Below are positions 11,693-28,870 of a stretch of 64,000 bases of DNA, piece after piece; within the stretch, counting starts at the first letter, position 1, and each line of letters starts with the position of its first letter. The DNA is from Desulfoscipio geothermicus DSM 3669. Its GTDB lineage: Bacteria > Bacillota > Desulfotomaculia > Desulfotomaculales > Desulfallaceae. Under the pieces are notes generated by a model, which saw nothing but the letters and a program-made list of their open reading frames with translations, did not search any database and was not told the origin of the DNA. Made by a program: the position numbers and the translations under genes. Location: assembly GCF_900115975.1 (NCBI RefSeq), contig NZ_FOYM01000006.1, positions 62,001 through 126,000 of the forward strand, read 5' to 3'.

Positions 11693-11704
11693 ACTGTTTC
11701 CCTC

Positions 11705-12721
11705 CTACCGCTTTTTATAATCATACCACTTAATCAGCAAGCCAGCCCAGGTGAGACCGGCACCGAAACCCACCATCACCACATTGTCGCCGTCTTTAAT
11801 TTTACCACTGTGCAGTGACTCTTCCAAGGCCAGCGGAATGGAAGCCGTAGAAGTATTGCCGTAGCGGTCCACATTCACGGCCACCCGCTCCATGGGCAGT
11901 TTCATCTTTTTAGCGGCGTGTTCGATAATGCGAATGTTGGCCTGGTGCGGGATCAAAAAGTCCACGTCCGCGCCGGTCATGCCGGCCCGGCGCAACACCT
12001 CGTTTGCACCGTCCTCCATGGCACGCACGGCGAACTTGAAAACTTCACGCCCGTTCATGGTCAAACAGTGCAAATTTCGTTCTACAGTTTCCGCTGTGGC
12101 CGGTTGCCGGGATCCGCCCGCCGGCAACTGCAAAAGGTGGCCGCCGCTGCCGTCCGAACCCAGCGCGGTGGCCAGGATGCCACGGTCGCCGGGCACCCGG
12201 CGCAACACCACCGAGCCCGCCGCATCGCCGAACAGCACGCAGGTATTGCGGTCCCGCCAGTTTAAAATCCGCGACAGCGTTTCCGCGCCCGCCACCAGCA
12301 CCGTCCGCGCAGTACCGGCGGCAATAAATTGCGCACCAACGGCGACCCCGTAAATAAACCCGGTGCAACCTGCCAGCAAGTCAAACGCCCCGGCATTGGC
12401 CGCACCCAACCTGTCTTGCAACAGACAGGCCGTGGCGGGAAAGAGCATGTCCGGTGTATTGGTGGCCGCAATCACCAGATCCAGTTCTTCGGGCCGTACG
12501 CCGGCATCGTCCAGGGCCCTGCGGGAAGCGGTCAGGGCCAGATCGGAAGTGGCCTCATCCGCGGAAGCCAACCGCCTTTCGAGAATCCCCGTGCGCGTGC
12601 GAATCCATTCATCGCTGGTGTCCACTATTTGCTGTATGTCTGCGTTGGTCAATACCCGCTCGGGCGCGTAAGTTCCTACGCCCACAATACCCGCCCGGAT
12701 TGTTTCACATCCCATCGACAT
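11705..12721 (-). CDS. fabH: 3-oxoacyl-[ACP] synthase III
   Basis: Initiating condensing enzyme, about 338 residues, joining acetyl- or branched acyl-CoA to malonyl-ACP. The catalytic triad is visible: cysteine in 'LLAGCTGFIYG' (about residue 119), histidine in 'IPHQANIRI' and asparagine in 'DRYGNTSTASIP'. I prefer the ATG at 12721 (AGAGG six bases upstream), which overlaps the end of plsX by about 17 bases; the 12760 start is less likely. Confidence 0.95.
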   Translation of the reverse strand: MSMGCETIRAGIVGVGTYAPERVLTNADIQQIVDTSDEWIRTRTGILERRLASADEATSDLALTASRRALDDAGVRPEELDLVIAATNTPDMLFPATACLLQDRLGAANAGAFDLLAGCTGFIYGVAVGAQFIAAGTARTVLVAGAETLSRILNWRDRNTCVLFGDAAGSVVLRRVPGDRGILATALGSDGSGGHLLQLPAGGSRQPATAETVERNLHCLTMNGREVFKFAVRAMEDGANEVLRRAGMTGADVDFLIPHQANIRIIEHAAKKMKLPMERVAVNVDRYGNTSTASIPLALEESLHSGKIKDGDNVVMVGFGAGLTWAGLLIKWYDYKKR

Positions 12722-14906: not shown

Positions 14907-15416
14907 TCACTTAAATAAATCCTTTAATTTAGCCAGGCGCGGGTCTGTGTCGTCCTGGACGCAATCACAGTTTTGTTGGTTCCGGTTGACACCGCATACG
15001 GGGCATAATCCCCGGCACTCTTCCTGGCAGATAAACCGTAACGGCAAATTTACCAAAATGGTGCCCTGTGCCTCCGGCGTAATATCTATAGTGTCGCCGC
15101 TGTACGGGATCCATTCCTCACCACTATCCCCGGGTGCCTGAAAGGTCTTATCGTAATAGGTTTCGTGAAAGTCCGCATCCATGGTCAGCGTGAAATCCTC
15201 CAGGCAACGGCTGCACTGTACTTTAATGTCGGCTTTAATACCGCCGTAGACATCAATGGCGTTACCCACATTGGTCAGCACCAGGTCAAATTGCGCCGGC
15301 TTGGCAAACTTCACCTGATTACCGTCCACCCTAATCGGCGGCAGGTCACCGGCAAAGGAAACCTTTTGCCGCTCGCCCTTCACCTTCTTTAATCGTTCCA
15401 CGTCCAAAAAGGGCAT
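14907..15416 (-). CDS. yceD: YceD/DUF177 family protein
   Basis: 169 residues from the ATG at 15416 (GGAGGGG upstream). DUF177 proteins are needed for 23S rRNA accumulation in other bacteria and typically precede rpmF, as here. The middle 'KVQCSRCLEDFTLTMDADFHETYY' and the C-terminal 'CQEECRGLCPVCGVNRN..CDC' cysteines are characteristic and suggest metal binding. A MITE-like repeat separates it from rpmF. Confidence 0.85.
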   Translation of the reverse strand: MPFLDVERLKKVKGERQKVSFAGDLPPIRVDGNQVKFAKPAQFDLVLTNVGNAIDVYGGIKADIKVQCSRCLEDFTLTMDADFHETYYDKTFQAPGDSGEEWIPYSGDTIDITPEAQGTILVNLPLRFICQEECRGLCPVCGVNRNQQNCDCVQDDTDPRLAKLKDLFK

Positions 15417-15539
15417 AAACTTACCCCTCCAGTAGTTCAACAGGTAAAATTATATAAATACGCAGGGACTTTGTCAAGAATAACAAATGTTTAACCTCAT
15501 TTTTCATCTGCACAGCTTCATGCACCGGTTATTATTCTC

Positions 15540-16238
15540 TTAGCAATCAATATAAATTATCGAAAATTTATTTTTAAAACGATTTAGAGCCCGGTAAAAA
15601 GATTTACCCAATAAAACAGTAAAAATAACGTTCCCCACGGCGTGGAAAGTATCAAAGGTAAAACTGGCTAAATAGGTGGCGATAAAAGTTTCCAATGTCA
15701 AAGGATAAACAAAGCCGACCCAGTGCCATATATTCATAATCCAGCCGAAAAGATAACCCCAGAATCCAGCCAGTATTATAAAGGTACTTAATTTAAAACC
15801 TTTTTGTCTGCCTGCCAGCAGTGCCGCCGATACCCCGCACAGGCCCCAGCAATACATCTGCCAGGGTGTCCACGGCCCCTGCCCCAAAAAGAAATTAGAT
15901 ACCAAAGCCGCAATAGCTCCAACCATAAATCCGGTTTGTGCACCGAAAACATAACCGGTAATCATAACGATAAAAGTTGTCGGCTGAACACTCATAATGG
16001 CAGCAAAGGGTATTCTCGAAACAGCAGCCAGTGCGGCCATGGTAGAGATAAGGGCAATCTCTTTTGATGTTACCGCGCTTTTCTCGAAACACCGGAAAAA
16101 AGCCAGCATGGCCAGACCAATTACAACTGATGAAAACAAAGCCCAGTTCACATTATATAATGGATTGACGGGAATTACGCTAACGGCCAGCAAAAGGCCG
16201 AGAAACACCAGTATCGCGGCAAAAATTTTGATTTTCAT
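15540..16238 (-). CDS. ECF transporter S component (probable corrinoid-specific)
   Basis: 232-residue membrane protein with about six hydrophobic helices and the S-component pattern (helix 2-3 'STMAALAAVSRIPF', 'FVMITGYVFGAQTGFMVGAIAALVSNFFLGQGPWTPWQM'). It would bind the substrate and pair with the EcfT/EcfA proteins encoded just upstream. The whole operon starts at a cobalamin riboswitch, includes cbiZ and encodes intrinsic-factor-like surface proteins, so a corrinoid (cobalamin, cobinamide or a precursor) is the likely substrate. The specificity is inference from context. It is the last gene of the operon. Confidence 0.8.
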   Translation of the reverse strand: MKIKIFAAILVFLGLLLAVSVIPVNPLYNVNWALFSSVVIGLAMLAFFRCFEKSAVTSKEIALISTMAALAAVSRIPFAAIMSVQPTTFIVMITGYVFGAQTGFMVGAIAALVSNFFLGQGPWTPWQMYCWGLCGVSAALLAGRQKGFKLSTFIILAGFWGYLFGWIMNIWHWVGFVYPLTLETFIATYLASFTFDTFHAVGNVIFTVLLGKSFYRALNRFKNKFSIIYIDC

Positions 16239-16263
16239 TAAAATCCATCCTGTTTCGATCTTA

Positions 16264-17790
16264 TTACTTTAATAGGTTTCTTAACCGCGTAATACTGTAG
16301 GCACACTGGGCCCTGGTTGCCTGGGCCCGGGCATCAAAGCCGGGATACAACAGCCCGTTATCCCCGGCCAGCTGTACGCTTCCCGAGTACCAGTAAGAGC
16401 CGGCCTCAACTTTGACCTGTTTTTCCGGCGGCAATGCCCTGACCAGCATGGCGGCCAGTTCCCCTCCGGTTATATTGCCGCCGGGATCAAAAACTCCGCC
16501 CGGTTTTCCTTTAACATACCCCATATCCACCGCTATTGAGATAACCCGGTTAGCCCAGTAGCTTTCTGATACGTCCTTAAACCTCAAAGCGGAATCACTT
16601 TCCAAGCTCCGGTAACCCAGGCCGTAAACCATAAACTTGGCAAATTCAGCTCTGGTCACCGGATTCCCCGGCTTAAAGGTTCCGCCGGGATACCCGCTTA
16701 ATACTTTTTCTTTCACCAGTTCCATAATGGAGCTGTGAGCCCAATGACTGGTGGAAATGTCGGAAAATATCCCACCACCGGGAAGTTCCGTTTTTCCAGC
16801 ACCGTATTCAATATTCACCGGGAACGGCTTTTTCGCCAGAGCCATTACTGCATAGGCCGTCATCATCACCGGTGAAGATCGTACATCAGGCATCCAATTA
16901 AAGGAACCGTCACTGTTTTGCAGGCTGAAAAGGTGAGTTACCGCATTCTTACCGTTTACTGACCATTCTTCACTTGCCGGGTTTTCACCGGCGGCAAACA
17001 GCCCCTGCAACACCCAGGCATCGGTAGCGCTGTTGGACTTGTTACCCTCCCAGCTAAAGCCGCCGTCTTCTTCCCGGCAGCTTTTTAAGTAATTCAGAGC
17101 ACCCCTTATGGCCGGAGAACTTTGCGGGTCCTCTCCCAGCACAACCAGGGTTTGGATGGCTACCGCCGTGTCATCCGGGTCACTGTTTATTCCCTCGGCC
17201 CAGCCGAAGCCGCCGTCCTTATTCTGCCGGGCCAGCAGCCACTCTTTGGCCCGCTCTTTGTTTGGTATATCCTGTCCGGTAGAGGCAAGGGCCAAAACCG
17301 ACCACATGTGATAGTTTATCAATCCCTGCTCTCCCCGGGCAGGCTGGGCAAATTGACCGCCGGTCTGCTGAAAGGAAGCTATTTTCCCGGCCAGGTTAAC
17401 CCCTTGATAAGCATTACCCTGGCGGGCAGCTGTCAAAGCCAGTAGAGTAACAGCATAGTCACCGGTGGATTCCAGGGAATTTTTACAATTCTTTAAAAAA
17501 TCAATGGGACTTTGGCCGGAGGGAGACCATCTGCTGCCGGCAACATCCTCCCCCGCCGCCGCCAGGGCCATGATAACCCAGGCAGTTATAGCCCGGCTGC
17601 TGTCGCGTCCCTTCTGAGTGGGAAATCCGCCATCATCATTTTGAATACCGCGCAGGTATGTTATCGCTTTTTTAATACTTTGCTCAGCCTGCTGCTCCGG
17701 AAATAAATTGGTTGCCGAAGCGATACCGGTAAATGGAAAAATAAATGATAATGCAATACTTATACAAACAACTAGTCTTTTACTTATCAT
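16264..17790 (-). CDS. S-layer-anchored alpha/alpha-toroid protein (intrinsic-factor-like N-domain)
   Basis: 508 residues from the ATG at 17790 (GGGAGG seven bases upstream). Signal peptide about residues 1-28. Residues about 35-330 consist of prenyltransferase/squalene-cyclase-type repeats with recurring 'DGGF' or 'DGSF' turns ('IQNDDGGFPT', 'NKDGGFGWAEG', 'EEDGGFSWEGN', 'NSDGSFNW'), the fold that also forms the N-domain of intrinsic factor and transcobalamin. Three SLH domains (about 350-508) would bind secondary cell-wall polymer. No DUF4430 domain is seen. It lies between the ECF ATPase and S component, so it probably delivers the substrate. A ligand is not proved by sequence. Confidence 0.8.
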   Translation of the reverse strand: MISKRLVVCISIALSFIFPFTGIASATNLFPEQQAEQSIKKAITYLRGIQNDDGGFPTQKGRDSSRAITAWVIMALAAAGEDVAGSRWSPSGQSPIDFLKNCKNSLESTGDYAVTLLALTAARQGNAYQGVNLAGKIASFQQTGGQFAQPARGEQGLINYHMWSVLALASTGQDIPNKERAKEWLLARQNKDGGFGWAEGINSDPDDTAVAIQTLVVLGEDPQSSPAIRGALNYLKSCREEDGGFSWEGNKSNSATDAWVLQGLFAAGENPASEEWSVNGKNAVTHLFSLQNSDGSFNWMPDVRSSPVMMTAYAVMALAKKPFPVNIEYGAGKTELPGGGIFSDISTSHWAHSSIMELVKEKVLSGYPGGTFKPGNPVTRAEFAKFMVYGLGYRSLESDSALRFKDVSESYWANRVISIAVDMGYVKGKPGGVFDPGGNITGGELAAMLVRALPPEKQVKVEAGSYWYSGSVQLAGDNGLLYPGFDARAQATRAQCAYSITRLRNLLK

Positions 17791-17809
17791 AAAAATTCCT
17801 CCCTGTAAA

Positions 17810-19492
17810 CTAACCACAATTCACCCGGTCTTCATTTAATCCCATTAACCGGGTTAATATTTCGCTACCCTGCTCCAAAGTGACCACGTCTTCGGCCAGA
17901 TTATTGAATAACTTGCTGATCTGCGGAGAATAAAAGGTGGAACGGGTGAGCATTTCATATTTACTTCCACTGGCAATGATGGTACCTTCAGCCATTAATA
18001 TAATATTACCGGCATATTCCGCGGCAAATTCCACATCGTGGGTAACAACCAAAACAGCCGTCCCTTCCGCCTGAAGCTGCAAAAGGATATTCCCCAACTC
18101 CGCCTTCAGCCGGTAATCCAGCCCCCTGGTGGGCTCGTCCAGCAGCAGTACTTGGGGCCTGACTACCAGGACAGAAGCCAGGGCCACGCGCTGGCGTTCC
18201 CCCGCGCTTAAATCCCGGGGGTTGACTTCCGCGCAGGAAGTTAATTGCAACCGTTTCAGCATTTTTTCAATAATCCCGTCATCGGGCAGTCCCAAATTGT
18301 TCAGGGTGAAGACCAGTTCTTCCCGTACAGTAGGTAAGAATAAATAGTCATTGGGGTCCTGTGACAGGTAACCGACGGTAGAGGCCAGTTCTTCCACCGA
18401 TAATTTTTTGGTATCTTGGTTTAAAACTTTCACCTGTCCCCTGCCGGGTTTGAGTAAACCGTTTATATTTTTCAGCAAAGTGGTTTTCCCCGCTGCATTT
18501 TCTCCCAGTATTACCGTAAAATCACCGGACCTGATTTTAAGATTGATATTCTTTAATGCCTCTTTACCGTTGGGATAAGCAAACCAAAGGTTTTGTATAT
18601 CTACCAGGCATTTACCCCCGGCTGATCCCGCTCTTTTTATTTTTAAGTTCTGCATTCTTAAGCCGGGAAGCGGATCATAAGATTTAAGAATCTCCCTGCC
18701 CTGTTTCACGGTGAGCGGCACCTCCGGAAAGCCCGCGCCCGCAAATAACCTGGCCAGCGGCGGAATAAAGGGTGTCTTATTTTTTGCCGCCCACCGGGCT
18801 ACCACATCCGGAGCATCGTCACATAGAATACGCCCGTTTTCCATAACCATCACCCGGTCAGCCAGGTGAAAGCACCTTTCCAAACGTTGTTCCACCAGGA
18901 TAACCGTAATGCCGTTTTCCTCGTTTAATCGCCTAACCATAGTAAGTATTTCTTCACCGGCTATGGGATCCAGCTGGGAAGTAGGTTCATCCAATATCAG
19001 AATTTCCGGCTGCATGGCCAAAACAGAGGCCAGGGCGACTTTCTGTTTCTGCCCCCCTGATAATTCCGGGGTAAAGCTACGTAAATAACCGGATAACGCC
19101 AGGGCACCGGTAACCTCCATTACCCGCCTTTTCATTAAGCTGTTGGGCAAACCCAGGTTCTCCAGACCAAAGGCCACCTCCTGTTCCACGTCGGTCATAA
19201 CCAGCTGGCTCTCCGGGTCCTGAAAAACCATGCCCACCTGCCGTACCAGGCTACGCCGGTCGAGTTGTCTGATTTCTTTATCATTAATATAAACCTTGCC
19301 CCCGTAAGTTCCACCGTAAAAGTCGGGGATCAAACCCGCCAGGGCACGAACCAAGGTTGATTTTCCGCAGCCGGATCCACCCACCAACAGGATAAACTGT
19401 CCCCCGGGGATTTCCAGATTGATTTTATCCAGGGCCGGTTTCTGTGTCTCCGGATAATAATAGGTTAAATCTTGGATTTTAATAACGGCCAT
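17810..19492 (-). CDS. ECF transporter fused double ATPase (EcfA-EcfA')
   Basis: About 560 residues with two ABC ATPase halves. First half: Walker A 'GGSGCGKST', signature 'LSGGQKQ', 'ILDEPTSQLD'. Second half: Walker A 'GENAAGKTT', signature 'LSAGERQ', 'LLDEPTRGLD'. It powers the ECF importer with the EcfT encoded upstream; the start at 19492 overlaps the ecfT end. Fusion of both ATPases is common in vitamin ECF systems of clostridia. A possible short initiation alternative at 19501 is less well placed. Confidence 0.9.
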   Translation of the reverse strand: MAVIKIQDLTYYYPETQKPALDKINLEIPGGQFILLVGGSGCGKSTLVRALAGLIPDFYGGTYGGKVYINDKEIRQLDRRSLVRQVGMVFQDPESQLVMTDVEQEVAFGLENLGLPNSLMKRRVMEVTGALALSGYLRSFTPELSGGQKQKVALASVLAMQPEILILDEPTSQLDPIAGEEILTMVRRLNEENGITVILVEQRLERCFHLADRVMVMENGRILCDDAPDVVARWAAKNKTPFIPPLARLFAGAGFPEVPLTVKQGREILKSYDPLPGLRMQNLKIKRAGSAGGKCLVDIQNLWFAYPNGKEALKNINLKIRSGDFTVILGENAAGKTTLLKNINGLLKPGRGQVKVLNQDTKKLSVEELASTVGYLSQDPNDYLFLPTVREELVFTLNNLGLPDDGIIEKMLKRLQLTSCAEVNPRDLSAGERQRVALASVLVVRPQVLLLDEPTRGLDYRLKAELGNILLQLQAEGTAVLVVTHDVEFAAEYAGNIILMAEGTIIASGSKYEMLTRSTFYSPQISKLFNNLAEDVVTLEQGSEILTRLMGLNEDRVNCG

Positions 19493-20379
19493 TTCTTCCA
19501 CCCCCAGCTCAGCACGGTCGGAACTGTTAATGCTAATACTATAACAGCCGCCATCTTGAGATCATTTAGTTGTAAACTCTCCAACCGGGGGTAATAGGTG
19601 TAGCCGGCCCACCCCTGCCAGACCGCCCAAATTCCGGTTAGCAAGGAAAGAACCGCAGCGGAAAAGATTAAGCAGTCCCTAGGTCGCCATAAATCACGGG
19701 TATAACAAGTCCTTTTCCCACTACCATATCCCCTGGCCTGCATTGATTCGGCCAACTGCAGAGAGCGCTCCAGAGAAGACAACAAAAGTACATTTATTAC
19801 CGGCAGCCGGTTCTTAACCCGCTGCCACCGGCTGCCCGTATCCAGTTTTACCCCGCGGCAGCGCTGCACCTCGGTTATTCGGCGCACATCCCGGATCATC
19901 AGGGGAAACAACCTGGTGGAAAGGGTTACGGCCAGCACGGATTTGTTGCCAAACTTGCTGAATAACTTTAATGCTTTATCGGGGTGTACGGCGTAGGTGT
20001 AGAAACAAAATGCGCTGACAATTACCAGCAAACGAATACCCATACCGATTCCGAAACATATGGCTTCCAGGGTTATTCTAATTTTACCCAGCACGGGAAC
20101 CCGCGGGCCGTAAAACAGCACGGTGGAACCGGCCTGGACAAAGACAGCGTTAACCAGCATAATCACCGTAATCATACCCAGGCTGATCAACAAGTAAGGT
20201 GTCCATTCCCGGAAATTGCCGGAAGCAATGATCACCGTTCCCACCGCCAGCAGCAGGCCCAGCAGGTATACAGGATGGGAAAAGATCAGGGATAAAATAA
20301 TAATTATGGAGATATAGGCCACCGCCGCAAGGGGATGCAGCTTATGTATTAAATTATCCTTTTCACGGTAAGCAAGCAT
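19465..20379 (-). CDS. ecfT: ECF transporter T component
   Basis: 304-residue transmembrane coupling protein with hydrophobic helices at roughly residues 14-60, 65-85 and 105-130, plus two near the C-terminus. The cytoplasmic coupling region 'RSLQLAESMQARGYGSG' holds the Ala-Arg-Gly motif that docks on the ATPases. It overlaps the ATPase gene by 28 bases and lies in the riboswitch-led operon. Confidence 0.88.
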   Translation of the reverse strand: MLAYREKDNLIHKLHPLAAVAYISIIIILSLIFSHPVYLLGLLLAVGTVIIASGNFREWTPYLLISLGMITVIMLVNAVFVQAGSTVLFYGPRVPVLGKIRITLEAICFGIGMGIRLLVIVSAFCFYTYAVHPDKALKLFSKFGNKSVLAVTLSTRLFPLMIRDVRRITEVQRCRGVKLDTGSRWQRVKNRLPVINVLLLSSLERSLQLAESMQARGYGSGKRTCYTRDLWRPRDCLIFSAAVLSLLTGIWAVWQGWAGYTYYPRLESLQLNDLKMAAVIVLALTVPTVLSWGWKKWPLLKSKI

Positions 20380-20404
20380 GATTCATCCTGTTCCTTTAAG
20401 TTTT

Positions 20405-21454
20405 TTATTCCAGCGGCAGGCTGACAACTTCTCCTGCTACAATTGCCGCACTAAATAACCCGGAGATTTTACCGGGACTTGTAACCAGCACATCCACTGC
20501 CTGCTGCAGGCCTTTCCGGTCGGTACCCACAATCAGCCACAGCGGGCTTTCGTCTCCGCTGCCCTCACCGGTAGCTGTTATAACCCCGGCACTACTATCG
20601 ATTATACGGGCGACCCGCCCCCTGTAATCCAACAACTCCAACCCGTCACTGGTAAAATGTACGCAAGTGCCGTTTTTGGTGTAAGCGTTGTTTAAATTGG
20701 CCAGCCAGTCAATTTGGCTTAATTCGCTCCATTGTCCCAGTACAATGACCGGACCCTGCCTGTTTTTCAACAAGCCGGCATCCGGATTCTTGATGGTGAC
20801 GGAAGCCACCCCTTGAGCCTTTAAGGCTTCTTGTAGATTTTCAGCCAGCATTATGTTATCTTCAGAACTCATGATGACGGTAGGCCCGACCTTACCCCGG
20901 TATCCGCGAACGAATGGTTCGGGATAGCAACCGATAACCGCGGGGAACATAGCCATTCTTTCCCACCCGTGGTAATCCCACCAAATAATATCCCCCGGTC
21001 CGGGGTAGTAATCCAGCGCCCCCACGTCGGCGAATATTCCATTAACGTAATAAAACCAGTCTTGCTTCTTACCTCCAAAGCCACCGAAATCAGATTTTAT
21101 CCCGTTAATACTATCAATAAAACCGCCGCCATGGGCAGTGGTTACACGGGTGCTTGTTTCGAGAACATCAAATACCGACCAGTTTTTTTGCAGAGCCACT
21201 GTTTTTTTTAATATGGAGTTTCTGCCAAAATCCCTCGTCAACCGTAAAGCTACTTTTTTTTCAGTACCTGCAACCGGCACCGATTGAGATCCCGATTCGG
21301 ACGTGCCCGGCTTTTGCGCAGCTTTTGACTCAATCCCGTTGGCAGCAGGAGTAACATTGGCCGGTTCATCACCGGTTCCTTTGCCTGCACAGGCAGTAAC
21401 GATCAGCAACATTAAGCCAAGAATTAGTAAGCATAAAAAACGGTGTTTTTGCAC
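20405..21454 (-). CDS. Lipoprotein with DUF4430 (transcobalamin C-domain-like) domain
   Basis: 349 residues, GTG start at 21454. Lipoprotein signal with lipobox 'IVTAC' (cysteine about 22). Residues about 75-170 match the DUF4430 pattern ('SVFDVLE', 'GGGFIDSINGIKSDFGGF', 'DWFYYVNGIFADVGALDYYPGPGDIIWWDYHGW'), the domain that closes the cobalamin site in intrinsic factor and transcobalamin. The remaining 180 residues ('VIGCYPEPFVRGYRG...') I do not recognise; they look alpha/beta. It is membrane-anchored outside the cell, next to ecfT, so it is a good candidate to hand a corrinoid to the transporter. Function is inferred. Confidence 0.75.
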   Translation of the reverse strand: MQKHRFLCLLILGLMLLIVTACAGKGTGDEPANVTPAANGIESKAAQKPGTSESGSQSVPVAGTEKKVALRLTRDFGRNSILKKTVALQKNWSVFDVLETSTRVTTAHGGGFIDSINGIKSDFGGFGGKKQDWFYYVNGIFADVGALDYYPGPGDIIWWDYHGWERMAMFPAVIGCYPEPFVRGYRGKVGPTVIMSSEDNIMLAENLQEALKAQGVASVTIKNPDAGLLKNRQGPVIVLGQWSELSQIDWLANLNNAYTKNGTCVHFTSDGLELLDYRGRVARIIDSSAGVITATGEGSGDESPLWLIVGTDRKGLQQAVDVLVTSPGKISGLFSAAIVAGEVVSLPLE

Positions 21455-21516
21455 TTTCCCTCATCTCCTGTGGTACCAGGTGTTGAATTGTTGAATTACA
21501 TCATGAAAAAGATAAT

Positions 21517-21552
21517 GATACACTGCCGGCAAGTTTTAGCTGGCAGTGTATC
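21517..21552 (-). terminator. Hairpin/attenuator between the large surface protein and the lipoprotein
   Basis: GATACACTGCC and its complement make a long stem (about 13 pairs, one mismatch) with a T-rich stretch five bases later on the minus strand. It may cap or reduce read-through from the 1125-residue gene. A half-copy of the 43.7-kb palindrome (AGGTGTTGAA...) lies beside it at 21480-21496. Confidence 0.5.
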
Positions 21553-21565
21553 TTTACAGTTAAAT

Positions 21566-24500
21566 TTACTCTATATGCTCAAGTAACCGCCCGATTATCA
21601 CAGCTACTTCAGCCCGGTTAACCATACCTTTCGGAACAATGGTATCTGCTGTACGGCCGTTAACAATGCCACTTTCCACGGCAAGGGCTATCCATTCTTT
21701 AGCCCAGTCGGGAATTTGTCCGGCATCGGTATATTTAGCCAGTACTTTATTTAGATCCGAAACTTCCCGACCTGTTTTGCTTTCAAGCACCCGGCTGATC
21801 ATTACCGCCAGTTCAGCCCGGGAGATACCCTTATCAGGGGAAAACGTACCGGCCGATGTTCCCTTAATAATTCCCGCCTTTACAGCTGCCGCAACATCAC
21901 CCGCATACCAGGCACTTTGGGAAACATCGGTAAATGTATGGCCGGCATTACTTTTGGGTATGCCCAGTGCACGGACCAACAGAGCGGCACACTGGGCTCT
22001 GGTTGCCGTCTGACCCGGTGCAAAGGTGGCAGGTGTAGCACCGCTTACTATATGCCTTGCGCTCAGCACCCGGATATCTTTTTCAGCCCAGTGACCGGCC
22101 AGATCGGTAAATTGCTTATCATATTCCAGCAGGGTAAAGGTACCTCCAGTGATTGTTTTGGCACTTATCATTTCTCTGGTTTTATCTGGTTTTGCTCCGA
22201 CATAAGTGAACTTGCCGTCCTGATACCTGTAAATGCCGGTAATTTCCGGGTCCTCGGTCAATCCCCGGCAACTCATTTCCAGTTCCAACGGTTCGGCCAG
22301 GCTGTTTACAACTTCTTTGTTTATCAGATCCTTAACAGTCACCGTGTATGCTTTACCCACAGGGCGCAGGGTAAGATGCGAAGACGAATTGGCATTGGCA
22401 TCCCGGACCAATTTATCTGCTTTGGCAGAATCCAATTGGGACACCGATAATACGTAACCTTCGGCAGCGGAAGATGCCGGTTCATTTTGTGAAAAAAGGC
22501 CGGAGGCAATTAAATCAAGTAAGCCATCAGTATCACGGGCAGCCAACATTACCGGCTTATGTCCCGTAAAGACTGTTTGCCGGTCGGCCCGTTCTGTTCC
22601 GGACAGCACGATTGTGAAGCCATCACTCACCCTGACAGCCAGTTTTAGCTCGCTTTCCCTCAAGTTCCGGGCAACATCATCTGCAACCACAAGCTCGGTG
22701 TTGGCTTTCTGTCCCGCCACCCCGGCAAGATCCACTTCAAGCTGCTGAACCGGTGTCCGGGCCAGCACGGCTATTTCTTGTAGCCGGTCACCGCTGAGAA
22801 TGTCTGACAATTCCCGCTGCGCCCGGCTAAGCTGTTCCAGTTGTTGCTCCAGAATATTGGCCGGTAGACTTACTGTGGTTGTTGAATCCGAGCCGAATAC
22901 TTTCAGCTGCGCGGATGAAATTGTTCCTGCCTTGGTGATTATATCCCTAACCTGGGAAGCAAGGCTGTTTTTAAGTTCCCCTGCAACATCAACCCCATCG
23001 GGTCTGGCCAGTACAATTTTCACACCGTCGTTTACTACGGGTTTCAAAACCGCTGCGGCTTGAACAGCAGTGGCATTTTTATTTTCAATCAGGGAAGCAA
23101 TGATTTTTTCCATAAGGTCCCGGACCGTTTTACCTGCCTCTGTAACGCTTGTTTCCGGGGATGCCAGTTCATTTTTCACATTGTTCATGATTTTAATAGT
23201 TTCTTCTACTGCATCAGACGGTGTTATTTCACCGCCGGCAATTTTATTTTGTAGATCAGTTACTTGATTATTATACTCTTCCAGTATAGCCGGATTATCT
23301 GTTGCACTGTTACCTTTTACCAAGCTATCCCAGGCCGGGCCGCTGGAATTCGGGTCCGTACTGTACCACCAGATTATTCGGTCTCCTTCATTGACGGTTT
23401 TATCGCTGGCCAGCACACTGGGCACGGAATTATTAACTTTATACATCCACCCGCTCATCCCGCTGTTGGCCTGCCCGGCTATGCTGTTGACAAAGCCTCC
23501 GTCTTCCGTATAACTTAGTCCGGTGGCATGAAGAGCGCCCATAGCAGTTACACCCCATTCTTTACTTTCTTTTAATGTTACATCACCCTCAAATAAAATT
23601 TCTTTATTTTTGCCAATTACTTTTATAGGAACTATAATACCCTGCTGGTTATTATTACCACTATTTCCAACACTACCGGTAACACTAACATTGGCACTGC
23701 CGCTGACACTCTGATACGTTGCAGTAACAACTGTATCTCCTACTCCAACCCCTGTAACTAATCCACTATTATTTACTGTCGCTACATCTGTATTATCTAT
23801 AGACCAATCTGTTAACTGACTTACATCTTCTTCATTACCGTCAAATTTACAAACCTTTGCAGTATATTGCTGTTCGTCTCCTACAATAATTTCTGCACCG
23901 GACGGATTTACACTTATTCCAAGTGCGGTATCTTCTGCAACATTCCCTCCAAGTATCAGGTAGGTTTCCAATGCCATAGTATTATCTAGTGAAGTTCCGT
24001 AGTCCCCAAATGTACCATCTTGATTCAAAGCTTTTTCTTTCATGTAATCTACAGGACTTTTACTTGCTTCACTTATCCATGTAGCAGGATCTATCCCTAA
24101 AAGATCTAGGGTAATAATCGCTTCTGCCGTATCTATAACTTTATCATCCCAAAATGTAAACTCGCCCCATACGGATGATACTGTAAAACTTCCGTCTTCT
24201 TGCTGTTGATTTTGTATCCAGTTAACCCCTTTGTCAATTGCAGACTGAACATCTGCAGCCTGATCCCCTGAGTAATTCTTTAAATATGTTAACGCCCGCA
24301 CGGCTTGTGCCGTGCTCAAAAAATCACACCATTTACCTGTTGCATCATCTTGTTCGCCTAAAATATAAGCTATTGCACCTGCTGTATCTATTTCACCTAT
24401 GACTCCGGCTCTGCCTAATGCCTCAAAAGCAGACATATCACTATAGGGATTTTGGTCAAATGAACCGTCTCCACTTGCAAGCTGCTTAGCTTTTAATATG

Positions 24501-24943
24501 TTTAACAATTCCGTAAGAGTATTTGCTTCTACTCCCCATCTCTTTGCAGTTATATATTCATAAGCTACTCTCTTTGCCGATGATGCATTCTCTGTATCTT
24601 TGTTTGCTATAGTAGTAGCAATCAAATTAAGCACATTATCTTTGAAACTTGTACCGTCATATACCCATGTATTTAAATTAGCTCCCGCTTGTGTTAATAC
24701 ATATGCATCATATGCTCCAAAACCATATGCGCCGTCAACTGCTTTTCCACCTTGGTATAAATTGTAGTTGTTACGTACCGCTTTTAAAGCTAAATCATCA
24801 TAAACCTCAGCAGCAACAGCCCTACTATCTTCAATGCCTGTGAATACAAATGCAAGTACAGGTACTAATAAAGTTGTTAAAAATATTAATAAAGTTATTT
24901 TAAAAGCCAAATATCTATGGCTTTTTCTATTTAATATATTCAT
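21566..24943 (-). CDS. Large S-layer protein with toroid, Big_2, DUF4430 and SLH domains (intrinsic-factor-like)
   Basis: 1125 residues; GGAGG six bases before the ATG. Signal peptide about 1-45 (ends AVAA). Domain order: alpha/alpha-toroid with terpenoid-cyclase-like repeats (about 45-330; 'QQEDGSFTVSSVWG', 'LNQDGTFGDYG'), bacterial Ig-like Big_2 (about 340-425), DUF4430 (about 435-545; 'GGFVNSIAGQ', 'SGWMYKVNNSVPSVLASDKTVNEGDRIIWWYS'), a helical/unassigned stretch (about 550-930), and three SLH domains (about 945-1125). Toroid followed by DUF4430 is the layout of animal intrinsic factor/transcobalamin. With the cobalamin riboswitch, cbiZ and ECF genes this suggests surface corrinoid capture. 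The first 1.4 kb of the gene is visibly more AT-rich than the rest. Confidence 0.82.
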   Translation of the reverse strand: MNILNRKSHRYLAFKITLLIFLTTLLVPVLAFVFTGIEDSRAVAAEVYDDLALKAVRNNYNLYQGGKAVDGAYGFGAYDAYVLTQAGANLNTWVYDGTSFKDNVLNLIATTIANKDTENASSAKRVAYEYITAKRWGVEANTLTELLNILKAKQLASGDGSFDQNPYSDMSAFEALGRAGVIGEIDTAGAIAYILGEQDDATGKWCDFLSTAQAVRALTYLKNYSGDQAADVQSAIDKGVNWIQNQQQEDGSFTVSSVWGEFTFWDDKVIDTAEAIITLDLLGIDPATWISEASKSPVDYMKEKALNQDGTFGDYGTSLDNTMALETYLILGGNVAEDTALGISVNPSGAEIIVGDEQQYTAKVCKFDGNEEDVSQLTDWSIDNTDVATVNNSGLVTGVGVGDTVVTATYQSVSGSANVSVTGSVGNSGNNNQQGIIVPIKVIGKNKEILFEGDVTLKESKEWGVTAMGALHATGLSYTEDGGFVNSIAGQANSGMSGWMYKVNNSVPSVLASDKTVNEGDRIIWWYSTDPNSSGPAWDSLVKGNSATDNPAILEEYNNQVTDLQNKIAGGEITPSDAVEETIKIMNNVKNELASPETSVTEAGKTVRDLMEKIIASLIENKNATAVQAAAVLKPVVNDGVKIVLARPDGVDVAGELKNSLASQVRDIITKAGTISSAQLKVFGSDSTTTVSLPANILEQQLEQLSRAQRELSDILSGDRLQEIAVLARTPVQQLEVDLAGVAGQKANTELVVADDVARNLRESELKLAVRVSDGFTIVLSGTERADRQTVFTGHKPVMLAARDTDGLLDLIASGLFSQNEPASSAAEGYVLSVSQLDSAKADKLVRDANANSSSHLTLRPVGKAYTVTVKDLINKEVVNSLAEPLELEMSCRGLTEDPEITGIYRYQDGKFTYVGAKPDKTREMISAKTITGGTFTLLEYDKQFTDLAGHWAEKDIRVLSARHIVSGATPATFAPGQTATRAQCAALLVRALGIPKSNAGHTFTDVSQSAWYAGDVAAAVKAGIIKGTSAGTFSPDKGISRAELAVMISRVLESKTGREVSDLNKVLAKYTDAGQIPDWAKEWIALAVESGIVNGRTADTIVPKGMVNRAEVAVIIGRLLEHIE

Positions 24944-24978
24944 CTTTTTCCTCCTATCTCAATTAATTTTCAAATAGT

Positions 24979-25722
24979 TCAATTCAACAACTTCTGCTTG
25001 TTTTCGAACTTGTATTCCCCACCGGATAATAACAAATATGTATTAACTCCTTGCATTACCGCCTTATATACTGTTCGTCCAATCAAATAACCCAGGTCAG
25101 TTGCAGTACCGGCATAAGGCAGCGGCTCTCCCCTACCGGTACAGGCAACCACAATGGCATCCGTTGTGGTCCCTGTTATCCGCTCACCGCTCGGCAGGCT
25201 GATTTTTGCGTTGAACAAAGCCCTTGTCTTAGCCTCGGTTGCCGTTATTATCGCATTCACCATTGCAGAATCAGTTAAATCTCCGTCAATTAACAAAATA
25301 AGATTTATGGTTCCCGGCTGATATTTGCCAGACACCTTTTTGATCGGTAAGCCTGCAACCCCAGGATTACCTATTCCCGCCGTGCAAAGAGTAGCCACTG
25401 AAAGCTCTTTTTGCCTCCCATTGCTCAATACGGTATGGGTAACACTTACAGCCGTCATCATGCCCAAAACATCATGCCCCAACTGTAAACGTTCAGCCAC
25501 CTGCTTTAAATCCTGCTCCGGATTACTACCCTGATAGTTTTTGTCAACAGAGTGATTAATTATGTACCTGGCCCATCGTAAATTTCCACCAAGAACAGCA
25601 GAACCAAGCACCTTCAAAGGTCTGTTAGATGAAATAAGAAATGTTGTTTGGTTATGAATATAAAAGTTTATCCCGTGGATGGAAACCTGTTTATTAAACA
25701 ACGTTACTTCTTCTAACAACAC
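24979..25722 (-). CDS. cbiZ: Adenosylcobinamide amidohydrolase
   Basis: About 247 residues. CbiZ hydrolyses adenosylcobinamide to adenosylcobyric acid, letting cells remodel salvaged corrinoids. Family pattern: 'FLISSNRPLKVLGSAVLGGNLRWARYIINHSVDKNY', 'TAVSV', 'CTAGIGNPGVAG', 'INLILLIDGDLTDSAMVNAIITATEAKTRAL', 'GTTTDAIVVACTGRG'. A longer frame continues upstream through the riboswitch and cannot be the real gene. GGGAGG just before GTG 25722 or TTG 25719 supports a start there; ATG 25746 lies directly after the terminator. First gene of the riboswitch-controlled operon. Confidence 0.9.
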   Translation of the reverse strand: MLLEEVTLFNKQVSIHGINFYIHNQTTFLISSNRPLKVLGSAVLGGNLRWARYIINHSVDKNYQGSNPEQDLKQVAERLQLGHDVLGMMTAVSVTHTVLSNGRQKELSVATLCTAGIGNPGVAGLPIKKVSGKYQPGTINLILLIDGDLTDSAMVNAIITATEAKTRALFNAKISLPSGERITGTTTDAIVVACTGRGEPLPYAGTATDLGYLIGRTVYKAVMQGVNTYLLLSGGEYKFENKQKLLN

Positions 25723-25749
25723 ATTTTCCTCCCGGCTAATTTTCATAAC

Positions 25750-25780
25750 AAAAAACCCCGGCCTACAAAGAGACCGGGGG
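25750..25780 (-). terminator. Expression-platform terminator of the cobalamin riboswitch
   Basis: CCCCGG/CCGGGG stem around a 12-base loop, followed by TTTTTT on the minus strand, between the aptamer and the cbiZ start. Cobalamin binding would be expected to favour this terminator. Confidence 0.75.
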
Positions 25781-25857
25781 TTAATCCCTGCTACCGGGAT
25801 AATAATTCCACATAAAAATAGCCACCTCCCTATCACCCGTAGGTAATGGTTACAACA

Positions 25858-26030
25858 AAACAGGCAGGTCTCCTGGCTCTGGTTCATCAAGATCTCACGT
25901 CTTCCCGGGTTAACACCCAGTGACACTATGTGAGAACTTTCCCCATCACAGTGGCGGGACCGCGCCGGATTTACACCGGCTTCCCTTTTAAGCTTGCACC
26001 TTTCCGGTGAAGACACCTGTTTGCTTAAAA
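25858..26030 (-). promoter_or_regulatory. Cobalamin riboswitch
   Basis: The minus strand carries the B12 box (GAGCCAGGAGACCTGCC at about 25863-25880) and the conserved core AAGGGAAGCCGGTG...AATCCGGC...GGTCCCGCCACTGT (about 25947-25990). It governs cbiZ and the downstream surface-protein/ECF operon by premature termination. Confidence 0.93.
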
Positions 26031-26072
26031 GTATATTCTGTTAAAAAAAATTAAACTGGTTAAATTTTTAAA

Positions 26073-26101
26073 AGTTTAACATACTTTTATCAGGTTGTCC
26101 A
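26073..26101 (-). promoter_or_regulatory. Promoter of the riboswitch operon (shared promoter type)
   Basis: Minus strand TGGACA (26096-26101), 17 bases, TAAACT (26073-26078). The spacer ends AAAGTATGT, and AAAAGT...ACTTTT forms a palindrome across the -10. Near-identical promoters occur at 31938-31966 and 53815-53843. Confidence 0.65.
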
Positions 26102-26186: not shown

Positions 26187-26948
26187 TTATGTTGCCTTTT
26201 TTGCTCCACAAACCGGACAGCCTTGCAAACCCAGGGGCATTTCAAGCCCGCACTTTTCCATCAATTCTTCATTGGCCAGAATATCTAATGTCGTCCCGTC
26301 GGTAATTATTTGCCCATTATTTAAGATAATAGTTCTTTCGCAAAGCTCCAAAACCATGTCCAAATCATGAGATGCTATGATTTTGGTGTGAGTAAAGCGC
26401 TTCAGGAGCGTTATTAACCGGCGCCTTGATTTCGGGTCCAGGGCGGATGAGGGTTCATCCATAACAAGAATATCCGGTTTCATGGCTAAAACTGTGGCAA
26501 TGGCCGCTGCACGCTTTTCTCCACCTGAAAGCTTGTAGGGCGGCCTGTCCATCAAGTGGAGAATTCCGACAGTCTCAAGCGAACTTTTTACCCTCTTTTC
26601 AACTTCGCCTTCAGGTAATTTATAATTACGTGGCCCAAAGGCCACATCATCATAAACAGTTGTCATAAACAACTGGTCATCCGGATCCTGAAAAACCATC
26701 CCCACACTTTGCCTTATCACCGGCAATGTTTTCTTAATTACCGGCACTTCTCCCACACTGATTTCTCCCTCATCCGGAAATAAAATGCCGACAAGGTGCA
26801 TTAATAATGTCGACTTACCTGCACCATTTGCACCTACGATACCAACGGACTCGCCATGTTGTATTTGGAATGTCACACCATTTAGAGCCTGTCGCCCGTC
26901 AGGATACGTATATTTTAAATTGTTGGCTTGGATAATATGGTGACTCAT
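26187..26948 (-). CDS. cbiO: Cobalt/nickel ECF transporter ATPase
   Basis: 253 residues from the ATG at 26948 (AGGAGTG upstream). Walker A 'GANGAGKSTLLMH', Q-loop 'MVFQDPDDQLF', signature 'LSGGEKRAAAIA', Walker B 'ILVMDEPSSALD'. Short N-terminus 'IQANNLKYTYPDGRQALNG' is typical of CbiO. It energises the CbiM/CbiQ importer encoded directly upstream. C-terminal 'GCPVCGA' is a small cysteine pair of unknown purpose. Confidence 0.92.
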   Translation of the reverse strand: MSHHIIQANNLKYTYPDGRQALNGVTFQIQHGESVGIVGANGAGKSTLLMHLVGILFPDEGEISVGEVPVIKKTLPVIRQSVGMVFQDPDDQLFMTTVYDDVAFGPRNYKLPEGEVEKRVKSSLETVGILHLMDRPPYKLSGGEKRAAAIATVLAMKPDILVMDEPSSALDPKSRRRLITLLKRFTHTKIIASHDLDMVLELCERTIILNNGQIITDGTTLDILANEELMEKCGLEMPLGLQGCPVCGAKKAT

Positions 26949-26950
26949 CT

Positions 26951-27757
26951 TCACACTCCTGTTATTAATGAACCTATCGCAGCCGGAATATTGAAATAGC
27001 GTATTACCACAAAGTATAAACCCCATCCGGTAAAGTATAAAATATCTCCAATTTGGATTCTTTTCTCGCTGCCGACATTATAATCTCCTGCAAATCCCCG
27101 GCAGCACATGGAATGATAAACACGCTGGGCTCTTTCCAATGTTCTGATCAGCAACTGTCCTGTTAAAGAACCCCAATCACTGAATCTGATGCCTTTTTCA
27201 CCCCGGGAACGCAACGAATACGCACGTACCGTGCGGCCAACTTCCTCAATCAGCACAGAGATATACCTGTATGTCAGTAGAAGCTGCAATATAAATACCC
27301 TGGGTACCCTCATCATTCCAAGCGCCGCTGCAATCCTTGTCATTCCTGTCGTAGCTATAAGGACCAATGCTGCCAGTATCGTTAAAACGCCTTTCAATAG
27401 AATTGAAAAAAAGGATATCCAACCTCCTGAAATCTGAATCCATGGCAATACAACCATTGGGCTGTGATCAAACAACGGGTTAAATAATCCTATACCAATT
27501 ATAAAAGGTGCAACTACAAGCATCCTTTTTAAAAGCGGAACTATGGGAATATCTGCCAGTGCTATAATAATAACAGGGTAAAACACAAGCGGCAACAACC
27601 CGCTTAACTCGTACTTGTTGAAAGATACAACTACAATTAAATAAACGCATGTTGTTAACACCTTTATCAGCGGGTGTATATTATGAATAATTGTCCTTTT
27701 CTCTGCAAGCTCATCAAGGAGCCTGATATTGTACAATGATGCTATCATATTTGACAT
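26951..27757 (-). CDS. cbiQ: Cobalt/nickel ECF transporter T component
   Basis: 268-residue membrane protein with about five hydrophobic segments and the coupling motif 'RAQRVYHSMCCRGFAGD' that contacts the ATPase. It lies between cbiM and cbiO in the standard order. The ATG at 27757 has a weak ribosome site, and ATG 27748 is an alternative. Confidence 0.9.
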   Translation of the reverse strand: MSNMIASLYNIRLLDELAEKRTIIHNIHPLIKVLTTCVYLIVVVSFNKYELSGLLPLVFYPVIIIALADIPIVPLLKRMLVVAPFIIGIGLFNPLFDHSPMVVLPWIQISGGWISFFSILLKGVLTILAALVLIATTGMTRIAAALGMMRVPRVFILQLLLTYRYISVLIEEVGRTVRAYSLRSRGEKGIRFSDWGSLTGQLLIRTLERAQRVYHSMCCRGFAGDYNVGSEKRIQIGDILYFTGWGLYFVVIRYFNIPAAIGSLITGV

Positions 27758-27817
27758 AAAATCATCAATCCCAATTTAAATTATAATGGCGAGGCTTAAA
27801 GCCCCGCCTCTTTTCCC

Positions 27818-28870
27818 CTAAACAGCACCGGCTTTATTTCGTTTCTTGATCATATAGATACAATAACCTGTCATTCCAGCCAGCAGCAAGGTCATTACAC
27901 CGCCGACCAATCCCGATACACTTGTTCCGGCATCCACTGCAGGCCATGCTTCTTCAGTCTCTGCAGCATTGGCATTTGTTTCCTGTTCCTGAACTTTAAA
28001 ACCATAATCAGGCAAAAACGCAATCTTTTCCTGAACAGCCGCCAGCGTTTGATGAATTCCCCCCGGTGCCTCGAGTTCCTCTTTACCTGATGTATTAAAC
28101 ATGGACCACTCCAGTCCATCAGGATATGCAGATGCAAACCATGAGAAAACACCACCGGTTATAACTGCAACAATGGCAAGCCCGGCAAGGACCTTCTTGA
28201 TTGAAACGCGGCCCAATGCCTCACCTGATGCCGCTTTCTCAATGATTTCAGGGCGTGCCTTCCAAACGAATCCGACGACAGCAGCAGTGACAAGACCTTC
28301 CACCACTCCAATGGCAAGATGAATGGGCTGCATCAACATTACAAACGTACCAAAGGGCAACTCCGATTTACCCGAAAGGAGTGTTTCGAGAACCACACTG
28401 AACGCGCCAAGCTGAAGACCTACAATTGCAGATAACATTGTCCCGGTAAAGATGCGTCCGGTGGAATACCCTTTGCGCATAATCCATTTATAAATTAGAG
28501 GATAAGCGATAAAGCACGTATAAAAACCAAGATTAAAAACATTACAGCCCAGCGCAAGCAAACCACCATCCGCAAAAAACAACGCCTGGATCACCAGAAT
28601 AGACGCCATGGCAAGAAAGCCTGCATATGGGCCCAGTAATATTGCAAGCAGCATGCCTCCCCCTAAATGGCCGCTGGATCCGGTTCCGGGTATTGTAAAG
28701 TTGATCATTTGAGCAGCGAAGACAAATGCCCCCATTACCCCCATTAAAGGAATCTTTTGTTCATCCAAGTCATTTTGAACTTTTTTGACTGAATATGCTG
28801 CGACTCCTGCCGTCGCCGCCCACATGGCTCCACCCACAACCGGTGAAATTAGGGCATCTGCCATATGCAT
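27818..28870 (-). CDS. cbiM: Cobalt/nickel ECF substrate-specificity protein CbiM with C-terminal PDGLE domain
   Basis: 350 residues. The N-terminus MHMADALIS supplies the Met1-His2 metal site known for CbiM/NikM, and 'TGSSGHLGGGMLLA' holds another conserved histidine. About six helices follow. A fused C-terminal segment (about 215-345) contains 'SAYPDGLEWSMF', the PDGLE/CbiN-like accessory domain, plus a last helix. This makes a CbiMN-type fusion. AAGGAGAGG precedes the ATG. Cobalt is favoured by the neighbouring corrinoid genes, but nickel is possible because both metals share this family. Its leader has a sigma-H-like promoter and attenuator. Confidence 0.9.
   Translation of the reverse strand: MHMADALISPVVGGAMWAATAGVAAYSVKKVQNDLDEQKIPLMGVMGAFVFAAQMINFTIPGTGSSGHLGGGMLLAILLGPYAGFLAMASILVIQALFFADGGLLALGCNVFNLGFYTCFIAYPLIYKWIMRKGYSTGRIFTGTMLSAIVGLQLGAFSVVLETLLSGKSELPFGTFVMLMQPIHLAIGVVEGLVTAAVVGFVWKARPEIIEKAASGEALGRVSIKKVLAGLAIVAVITGGVFSWFASAYPDGLEWSMFNTSGKEELEAPGGIHQTLAAVQEKIAFLPDYGFKVQEQETNANAAETEEAWPAVDAGTSVSGLVGGVMTLLLAGMTGYCIYMIKKRNKAGAV

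Follow-up and report, generated by a model that had tools for sequence, protein, structure and literature searches.

A riboswitch-headed operon encoding a CbrT-type importer and transcobalamin-like surface proteins, with a probable role in corrinoid salvage

Within the 64,000 nucleotides analysed here (the window), which derive from Desulfoscipio geothermicus of the class Clostridia, an operon spanning positions 26101–15540 appears to encode a riboswitch-repressed system for corrinoid salvage. We put the probability of this reading, which combines a CbrT-type importer, a transcobalamin-like wall receptor, half-clasp proteins, and CbiZ, at roughly 80%. The parts of the operon lie on the minus strand in the order promoter-like site, riboswitch, terminator, cbiZ, toroid+DUF4430+SLH protein, DUF4430 lipoprotein, ECF T, ECF A-A′, toroid+SLH protein, and ECF S. 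The parts and order claimed in an earlier note on this DNA were all confirmed at their stated positions. About 20 of the 22 loci compared share this gene order, far beyond chance. Intergenic gaps range from −37 to 111 nucleotides, which makes co-transcription of the operon plausible. The features are as follows.

26187–28870: second ECF set, CbiM-PDGLE, CbiQ, and CbiO, directly upstream of the operon
26073–26101, minus strand: promoter-like site, TGGACA-17-TAAACT with TG before the −10 element; 9 of 12 consensus letters, weak by itself
25846–26035, minus strand: cobalamin riboswitch aptamer, RF00174, 129.9 bits, E = 2.3e-32, full length (1–189)
25750–25779, minus strand: intrinsic terminator in the interval between aptamer and cbiZ (expression platform); 9-pair stem with 7 G-C pairs, then TTTTTT
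24979–25722, minus strand: cbiZ, adenosylcobinamide amidohydrolase, PF01955, 206 bits, profile positions 3–191 of 191
21566–24943, minus strand: transcobalamin-like surface protein of 1125 amino acids with signal peptide, toroid, BIg2, DUF4430, long linker, and three SLH domains
23951–24808, minus strand: its toroid (alpha-domain-like), residues 46–331, from a local profile and the structure model
23687–23917, minus strand: its BIg2 domain, residues 343–419, Pfam, 41 bits
23360–23554, minus strand: its DUF4430 or transcobalamin beta-like domain, residues 464–528, Pfam, 57.4 bits, and structure
21581–22111, minus strand: its three SLH domains, residues 945–1121, Pfam and local profile
20405–21454, minus strand: DUF4430 lipoprotein (class I), 349 amino acids, lipobox VTAC near residue 22, DUF4430 54.2 bits
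19465–20379, minus strand: ECF T component, CbrV-like, CbiQ family
17810–19501, minus strand: ECF fused ATPases A-A′, CbrU-like, two ABC domains
16264–17817, minus strand: stand-alone toroid+SLH protein, 517 amino acids, signal peptide, Prenyltrans toroid 66 bits, SLH 102 bits
15540–16238, minus strand: ECF S component, CbrT family, ECF_trnsprt, with 6fnp_A as sole PDB match

The aptamer scores far above the RF00174 gathering threshold of 31.5 bits. This covariance-model match is the real evidence for the riboswitch; the folding z-score of the leader RNA is modest (−1.6). The terminator at 25779–25750, which was overlooked in the earlier reading, is strong and is the best terminator-like site in the region. 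From this arrangement of the leader sequence we infer an OFF-switch in which the riboswitch would attenuate transcription via the terminator. The start of cbiZ as drawn in the list of open reading frames falls inside the riboswitch; GTG 25722, which lies behind GGGAGG, is the likelier start, with ATG 25746 as the alternative.

The S component identifies the probable cargo. A single-sequence search of the PDB returned only 6fnp_A (CbrT; E = 1.3e-17), and a 14-sequence profile returned CbrT at 1.4e-20 with the next match at 0.47. CbrT imports B12 and cobinamide (PMC5997447, PMC6593275). By homology, the operon's ECF T, A-A′, and S components are predicted to form a dedicated corrinoid importer of the CbrT type, and the earlier claim of corrinoid uptake gains support from the riboswitch, CbiZ, and this S component. 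They resemble ECF-CbrT (CbrUVT) of Lactobacillus delbrueckii (6FNP), which likewise combines a CbrT-homologous S component with a T component and ATPases (PMC5997447). The L. delbrueckii gene cluster is nrdJ-cbrS-cbrT-pduO (PMC5997447), whereas the present operon holds dedicated T and A-A′ genes, three surface proteins, a riboswitch, and CbiZ. It is very unlikely that the ECF components carry cobalt or a vitamin other than B12 (folate, riboflavin) and have the riboswitch and cbiZ as chance neighbours. The S component does match folate and riboflavin S families weakly, and the ECF set at 26187–28870, probably a separate cobalt importer, adjoins the operon; however, the PDB search gives CbrT only, and each of the 22 loci compared has a cobalamin riboswitch at the head of its operon, a figure that exceeds the general rate because these loci were picked for DUF4430 pairs. 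BtuCDF was rejected as the cell's B12 importer. No convincing FecCD/BtuC permease was found in the genome, where the strongest FecCD hit (E = 1.4e-6) falls on a region that overlaps an ABC-3 permease (35382–36185), so that the operon encodes the sole recognisable corrinoid importer of the host.

The three surface proteins begin with signal peptide-like N termini. Both DUF4430 copies score well above the PF14478 cut-off of 23.8 bits, and the SLH domains of the 1125-residue protein have solved relatives in the SLH domains of the S-layer protein Sap. Its toroid is too diverged to give a Pfam match at E 0.01 and was detected by a local profile and by structure. AlphaFold models of the toroid+DUF4430 part have a pLDDT of 89 and predict strands at residues 391–398, 404–412, 454–458, and 478–482, a helix at 422–428, and a hairpin at 433–436/439–443. 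The likeness to intrinsic factor and transcobalamin that the earlier note proposed is seen in these models, whose best Foldseek matches are transcobalamin, haptocorrin, and intrinsic factor, covering both domains; for a compact relative, 14 of the 14 best matches are B12 carriers. The alpha domain of intrinsic factor superposes on the model at 2.8 Å over 232 residues, and the beta domain of transcobalamin aligns with a TM score of 0.68. Each domain also aligns with holo-transcobalamin, but the mutual placement of the domains differs in these ligand-free models, giving an overall rmsd of 17–24 Å, though the domains of transcobalamin are themselves flexibly linked and come together only on ligand (PMC5599065). 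Like the animal carriers, the protein is thus modelled as a toroid followed by a beta-grasp domain; unlike them, it has SLH wall anchoring and a BIg2 domain between the two. Sequence profiles of toroid+DUF4430 and of DUF4430 alone, run against PDB sequences, did not reach the animal carriers. PF01122, the animal family, was not among the Pfam matches at E 0.01, so the protein is not filed in the intrinsic factor/transcobalamin family. The modelled link to the animal carriers is one of fold and DUF4430 membership.

The toroid taken alone matches terpene cyclases equally well or better (Z of 22 versus 19). Pfam and NCBIfam matches to squalene-hopene cyclase, together with a DPDDTA motif in the 517-residue protein that resembles the catalytic DXDD, could raise the possibility that the toroid proteins are exported terpene cyclase-type enzymes. 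Such an identity is extremely unlikely and was rejected: of 12 stand-alone toroid proteins just 3 have DXDD, and DVDST or DVDMT takes its place in others; moreover, the toroid proteins are secreted, and no extracellular substrate is known.

Besides the full receptor, the operon encodes two proteins that each carry one of the clasp domains. The 349-residue lipoprotein consists of a linker, DUF4430 at residues 92–162, and 185 C-terminal residues without an assigned family. DUF4430 is absent from the 517-residue protein, whose only clasp domain is the toroid, making it half a clasp. Membrane-tethered DUF4430 proteins form two classes, of which class I is lipid-anchored. A stand-alone toroid is encoded in six of six class I operons versus 5 of 14 class II operons (one-sided p ~0.01, with relatedness ignored). 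Animal transcobalamin split into its two domains can reassemble in trans, but needs cobalamin to do so (PMC5599065). One may speculate, though the idea is doubtful, that the wall toroid and the DUF4430 lipoprotein clasp a corrinoid in trans and relay it from the full receptor to CbrT.

The earlier note proposed a survey for enrichment of DUF4430 near B12 genes, and a sample of 398 genomes of the host's phylum bears that enrichment out. DUF4430 occurs in 125 of these genomes and CbrT-like genes in 133; the two co-occur in 120 (p about 2e-79) and are usually adjacent, CbrT lying within 10 kb of 126 of 150 DUF4430 sites. The thiamine controls behaved differently: a TPP riboswitch lies near 0 of 93 DUF4430 sites and ThiT near 0 of about 78, and the genome-level association of ThiT with DUF4430 is negative. 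A cobalamin riboswitch lies within 10 kb of at least 45 of 93 DUF4430 sites and at 4 of the 12 best-scoring DUF4430 loci, so the tie between domain and riboswitch is not universal. These data bear on an alternative in which the SLH proteins have a general role in the wall or S-layer, DUF4430 binds wall polysaccharide, and corrinoids are handled by the ECF part only. The toroid fold is common to many unrelated proteins, and wall polymers have been linked to SLBB relatives such as those of ComEA and polysaccharide export proteins (PMC1796856). We nevertheless consider this explanation unlikely. It gives no reason for cobalamin riboswitch control of wall proteins; both DUF4430 genes of the genome and its only Prenyltrans-toroid match sit within the operon; DUF4430 tracks CbrT across the 120 genomes; and among the best PDB matches the two-domain combination fits B12 carriers only.

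Homology searches of the genome identified CbiD, BzaB, BzaD, CobS, CobT, CobU, CobQ, and CbiB, by which the host is a predicted de novo cobamide producer. A cell with this pathway would hardly need ready-made B12. Rather than cobalamin itself, the importer and surface proteins may handle unfinished or atypical corrinoids (cobinamide, cobyric acid, or other cobamides), making the system a remodelling scavenger. This narrower account is a tentative but reasonable alternative, consistent with cbiZ in the host operon and four other loci, with CbiD in 41 of 60 DUF4430 genomes, and with the uptake of cobinamide by CbrT (PMC5997447). Against it, no cbiZ was seen in 17 of the 22 related operons, so remodelling is no constant part of the system, and the 19 of 60 relatives without CbiD would require whole cobamides or late precursors.

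Under our preferred reading of general corrinoid salvage, scarcity of coenzyme B12 would lead the riboswitch to permit transcription past the terminator. The wall receptor, with its toroid and DUF4430 held on SLH domains, would close both domains around a corrinoid; its fold is seen in the model, and corrinoid binding is a prediction. The DUF4430 lipoprotein, on its flexible linker, and the wall toroid protein would act as half-clasps that probably hand the ligand to CbrT, which is the weakest step of the scheme. ECF S, T, and A-A′ would then carry corrinoids across the membrane. CbiZ would generate cobyric acid by cleaving corrinoids of foreign origin or incomplete structure, and the cell's own enzymes could then attach the preferred lower ligand to it. 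CbiB, CobU, CobS, CobT, and BzaB/BzaD, assigned by homology, are candidates for this refitting, a route modelled on established cobamide remodelling. ECF-CbrT works in E. coli unaided by surface proteins (PMC5997447). The surface proteins are therefore dispensable for transport in principle.

Few experiments have so far addressed B12 capture outside the membrane by Gram-positive bacteria. In gut Bacteroides, the surface-exposed lipoprotein BtuG reportedly captures B12 and, like the proteins described here, is tied to a B12 transport locus. BtuG is a Gram-negative outer-membrane lipoprotein, whereas the present operon has a toroid+DUF4430 wall protein. The earlier note knew of no experimentally described Gram-positive system of this design. 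That statement holds for experiments only, because Burroughs, Balaji, Iyer and Aravind predicted in 2007, from Gram-positive examples that include a Desulfotomaculum protein, transcobalamin-like, toroid-fused, CbiO/CbiQ-linked surface scavengers of B12 (PMC1796856); we found no experimental test of this prediction in the literature. The proteins of that prediction share with the operon a secreted or surface-located toroid fused to the C-terminal SLBB domain of transcobalamin (Pfam DUF4430), a second paralogous SLBB protein, and CbiO- and CbiQ-like genes (PMC1796856). The available text of the paper describes such bacteria as usually lacking B12 synthesis, whereas the operon places a riboswitch, CbiZ, and CbrT in a host predicted to make cobamides de novo, and CbiD occurs in 41 of the 60 relatives; an SLH anchor, a stand-alone toroid partner, and a CbrT assignment are not named there (PMC1796856). 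New relative to that prediction are the CbrT identity, a putative attenuation by the riboswitch, the presence of CbiZ in a producer, the co-occurrence statistics, the division of membrane-tethered DUF4430 proteins into two classes, and the stand-alone toroid partner. In L. rhamnosus, the small lipoprotein K8Q211 bears the database name 'Additional lipoprotein component of putative cobalamin ECF transporter' (PMC9963975); the DUF4430 gene LGG_02295, which adjoins rtpR, may or may not encode it. Unlike the operon, the K8Q211 system is described without mention of toroid or SLH proteins (PMC9963975).

Should the surface proteins prove to bind corrinoids, bacteria would possess equivalents of intrinsic factor and transcobalamin. 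This would bear on the 2007 proposal that animal B12 carriers were acquired from Gram-positive bacteria, and would account for the supply of CbrT-type importers across a thick wall. It would also give a function to DUF4430, a domain present in about one third of the phylum genomes sampled. The tight link between DUF4430 and CbrT, together with the host locus, makes the prediction of corrinoid binding cheap and easy to test.

All elements that the earlier note had assigned to this operon are present on the minus strand, from 26101 to 15540. The cobalamin aptamer, a full-length match to RF00174 (129.9 bits), is the sole Rfam match within the 64-kb window. Two features had been missed. An intrinsic terminator separates the aptamer from cbiZ, which makes the leader a classical attenuation platform, and cbiZ probably starts at GTG 25722 or ATG 25746, beyond the terminator rather than within the aptamer. 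Pfam and NCBIfam assigned the protein domains listed below; the toroid of the 1125-aa protein falls under Pfam detection and became visible with a local profile and a structural model.

25779-25750, minus strand: strong intrinsic terminator between aptamer and cbiZ
Minus strand: CbiZ
Minus strand: 1125-aa protein with DUF4430, BIg2, and SLH
Minus strand: 349-aa protein with DUF4430 and a lipobox
Minus strand: CbiQ-type T component
Minus strand: two-domain ATPase
Minus strand: 517-aa protein with toroid and SLH
Minus strand: ECF S component

Directly upstream of the operon lies a cobalt-type ECF importer (CbiM-PDGLE fusion, CbiQ, and CbiO; 26187-28870) that has no riboswitch of its own; a second, riboswitch-headed CbiMNQO set is found elsewhere in the genome (locus L060). 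Just past the operon, a perfect TTGACA-17-TATAAT promoter (15477-15449) heads a gene at 14907-15440 with the look of YceD/DUF177, followed by a plsX-type gene cluster.

Sequence comparison identifies the importer. Among 177,635 PDB sequences, 6fnp_A was the single match to the S component (E 1.3e-17); with a profile built from 14 relatives, this chain again came first at 1.4e-20, with the next at 0.47. 6FNP is ECF-CbrT, a characterised transporter of B12 and cobinamide (PMC5997447; PMC6593275). Some CbrT-like matches (for example, G129:C59, G190:C184, and G225:C11) are part of longer open frames, about 800-1060 aa in length, and S may there be fused to other ECF components.

The proposed likeness of the surface proteins to intrinsic factor and transcobalamin was borne out by structure prediction for the toroid+DUF4430 protein, whose best PDB matches over both domains are the animal B12 carriers. 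The modeled toroid-BIg2-DUF4430 part of the window protein (pLDDT 89.5) and the model of L058, a compact relative lacking BIg2 (pLDDT 89.3), had transcobalamin, haptocorrin, and intrinsic factor as their top nine and top fourteen matches, respectively, with both domains aligned. The window model also predicts the beta-hairpin insert by which the transcobalamin-like clade is defined. By itself the toroid tells little, since it resembles many proteins, terpene cyclases foremost (Z 22); the pointer to B12 carriers is the modeled combination of the two domains. Domain placement in the models differs from that in ligand-bound carriers by 17-24 Å overall, which is not decisive: a flexible linker connects the domains of transcobalamin, and these come together only with cobalamin between them (PMC5599065). 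Sequence profiles of toroid+DUF4430 or DUF4430 alone did not reach the animal proteins among PDB sequences.

We compared 22 loci, the window and the Desulfallas locus among them, from at least 11 families of the phylum. These loci were picked for DUF4430 pairs, and general rates were therefore measured separately. A cobalamin riboswitch was present in all 22, the toroid+DUF4430+SLH protein in 21 (its toroid and DUF4430 being split over adjoining genes in L052), and the small DUF4430 protein, T and A-A' adjoining it, and an S component in 20 each, L042 and L049 being among those with S. An additional toroid protein occurred in 11 loci and cbiZ in 5. Tandem cobalamin riboswitches precede the same operon in L008 (4971-5737), L044 (15138-15806), and L049 (5960-6511). 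The toroid+DUF4430 gene of L045 (4924-8297) extends over two open frames, possibly through a frameshift or mis-called start. L040 carries two CRISPR repeat arrays (38-944 and 11455-12614), between which lies a divergent gene for a 1622-aa toroid+DUF4430+SLH protein.

Small DUF4430 proteins fall into two classes. Class I (window, L008, L039, L043, L046, and L052) has a lipobox and, with small variations, the motif WFYYVNG...IWWDYH. In class II (14 loci), the N terminus bears a hydrophobic segment, and a long linker of low complexity leads to DUF4430 at the extreme C terminus. From sequence, either class resembles a beta domain tethered to the membrane by a leash. Stand-alone toroid proteins accompany 6/6 class I operons versus 5/14 class II operons, which weakly suggests a clasp split over two proteins. 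The C-terminal 185 residues of the window's lipoprotein (20405-20960) matched no Pfam or NCBIfam family; its class I relatives are of similar length. In the stand-alone toroids of L050, L054, L056, and L057, the SLH part is replaced by another C-terminal domain, a candidate copper-amine-oxidase N-terminal (stalk) domain.

Genomic linkage extends across the phylum, as the survey called for in the earlier note revealed. Among 398 genomes, DUF4430 occurred in 125, a CbrT-like gene in 133, and both in 120 (odds ratio 480, Fisher p 2e-79, relatedness ignored). CbrT lay within 10 kb of 126 of the 150 DUF4430 sites listed. Genes adjoining DUF4430 were the source of the CbrT profile, which is biased toward them; it also matched CbrT-like genes in 13 genomes that lack DUF4430. 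A cobalamin riboswitch lay within 10 kb of at least 45 of 93 DUF4430 sites, versus none of 93 for the control TPP riboswitch. The thiamine S component ThiT was near none of about 78 sites and was negatively associated with DUF4430 by genome. Placement of DUF4430 under a cobalamin riboswitch is not universal (4 of the 12 best-scoring loci). One genome, G248, has 13 DUF4430 matches, far above its relatives.

Burroughs et al. 2007 (PMC1796856) defined the transcobalamin-like clade, noted its toroid fusion in Gram-positives including Desulfotomaculum, described operons that have CbiO/CbiQ genes and a second surface protein paralogous to the first, and proposed B12 scavenging and gene transfer to early animals. 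Thus, the design had been predicted, and the earlier note's statement that no experimentally described Gram-positive system of this design was known to it holds for experiments only, none of which were found in the open-licence literature for any of these proteins (subscription papers lay mostly outside the search). The system is of a kind already predicted in silico, now with better evidence and some new features. The same paper remarks that bacteria of this type usually lack key genes of B12 synthesis, but the genomes sampled here do not bear this out: CbiD was found in 41 of 60 genomes with DUF4430. Databases also carry the name "additional lipoprotein component of putative cobalamin ECF transporter" (PMC9963975).

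The host genome (3.65 Mb, 99.99% complete) contains a cobamide synthesis path. It has CbiD and five cobalamin riboswitches; genome-wide, three of the other four head cobamide-related sets:

Cobalt ECF with CbiJ
Lower-ligand cluster BzaB, BzaD, CobS, and CobT
Late cobamide cluster CobU, CobQ, and CbiB

CbiD and the riboswitch-headed lower-ligand and late clusters indicate that the cell can probably make cobamides. The genome yielded no convincing BtuC match, and both of its DUF4430 genes and its only Prenyltrans-toroid match are located in the operon, which is therefore its sole recognisable corrinoid importer. Desulfallas sp. Bu1-1 (Bacillota, Clostridia) is the closest relative that has a name, with 73% identity in the lipoprotein. 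At a further locus, L059, the first sizeable gene downstream of a strong cobalamin riboswitch (219-407; 128.5 bits) encodes an MntR-like regulator.

The interpretation as to pathway and architecture is well supported. From sequence and models, we infer that the surface proteins bind corrinoids and hand them over: the toroid+DUF4430 protein would capture a corrinoid at the wall, the small DUF4430 protein would pass it to CbrT, and CbiZ cleavage would be followed by remodelling. Because ECF-CbrT transports in E. coli without such partners (PMC5997447), the surface proteins should matter for affinity, specificity, or wall passage rather than for transport as such.
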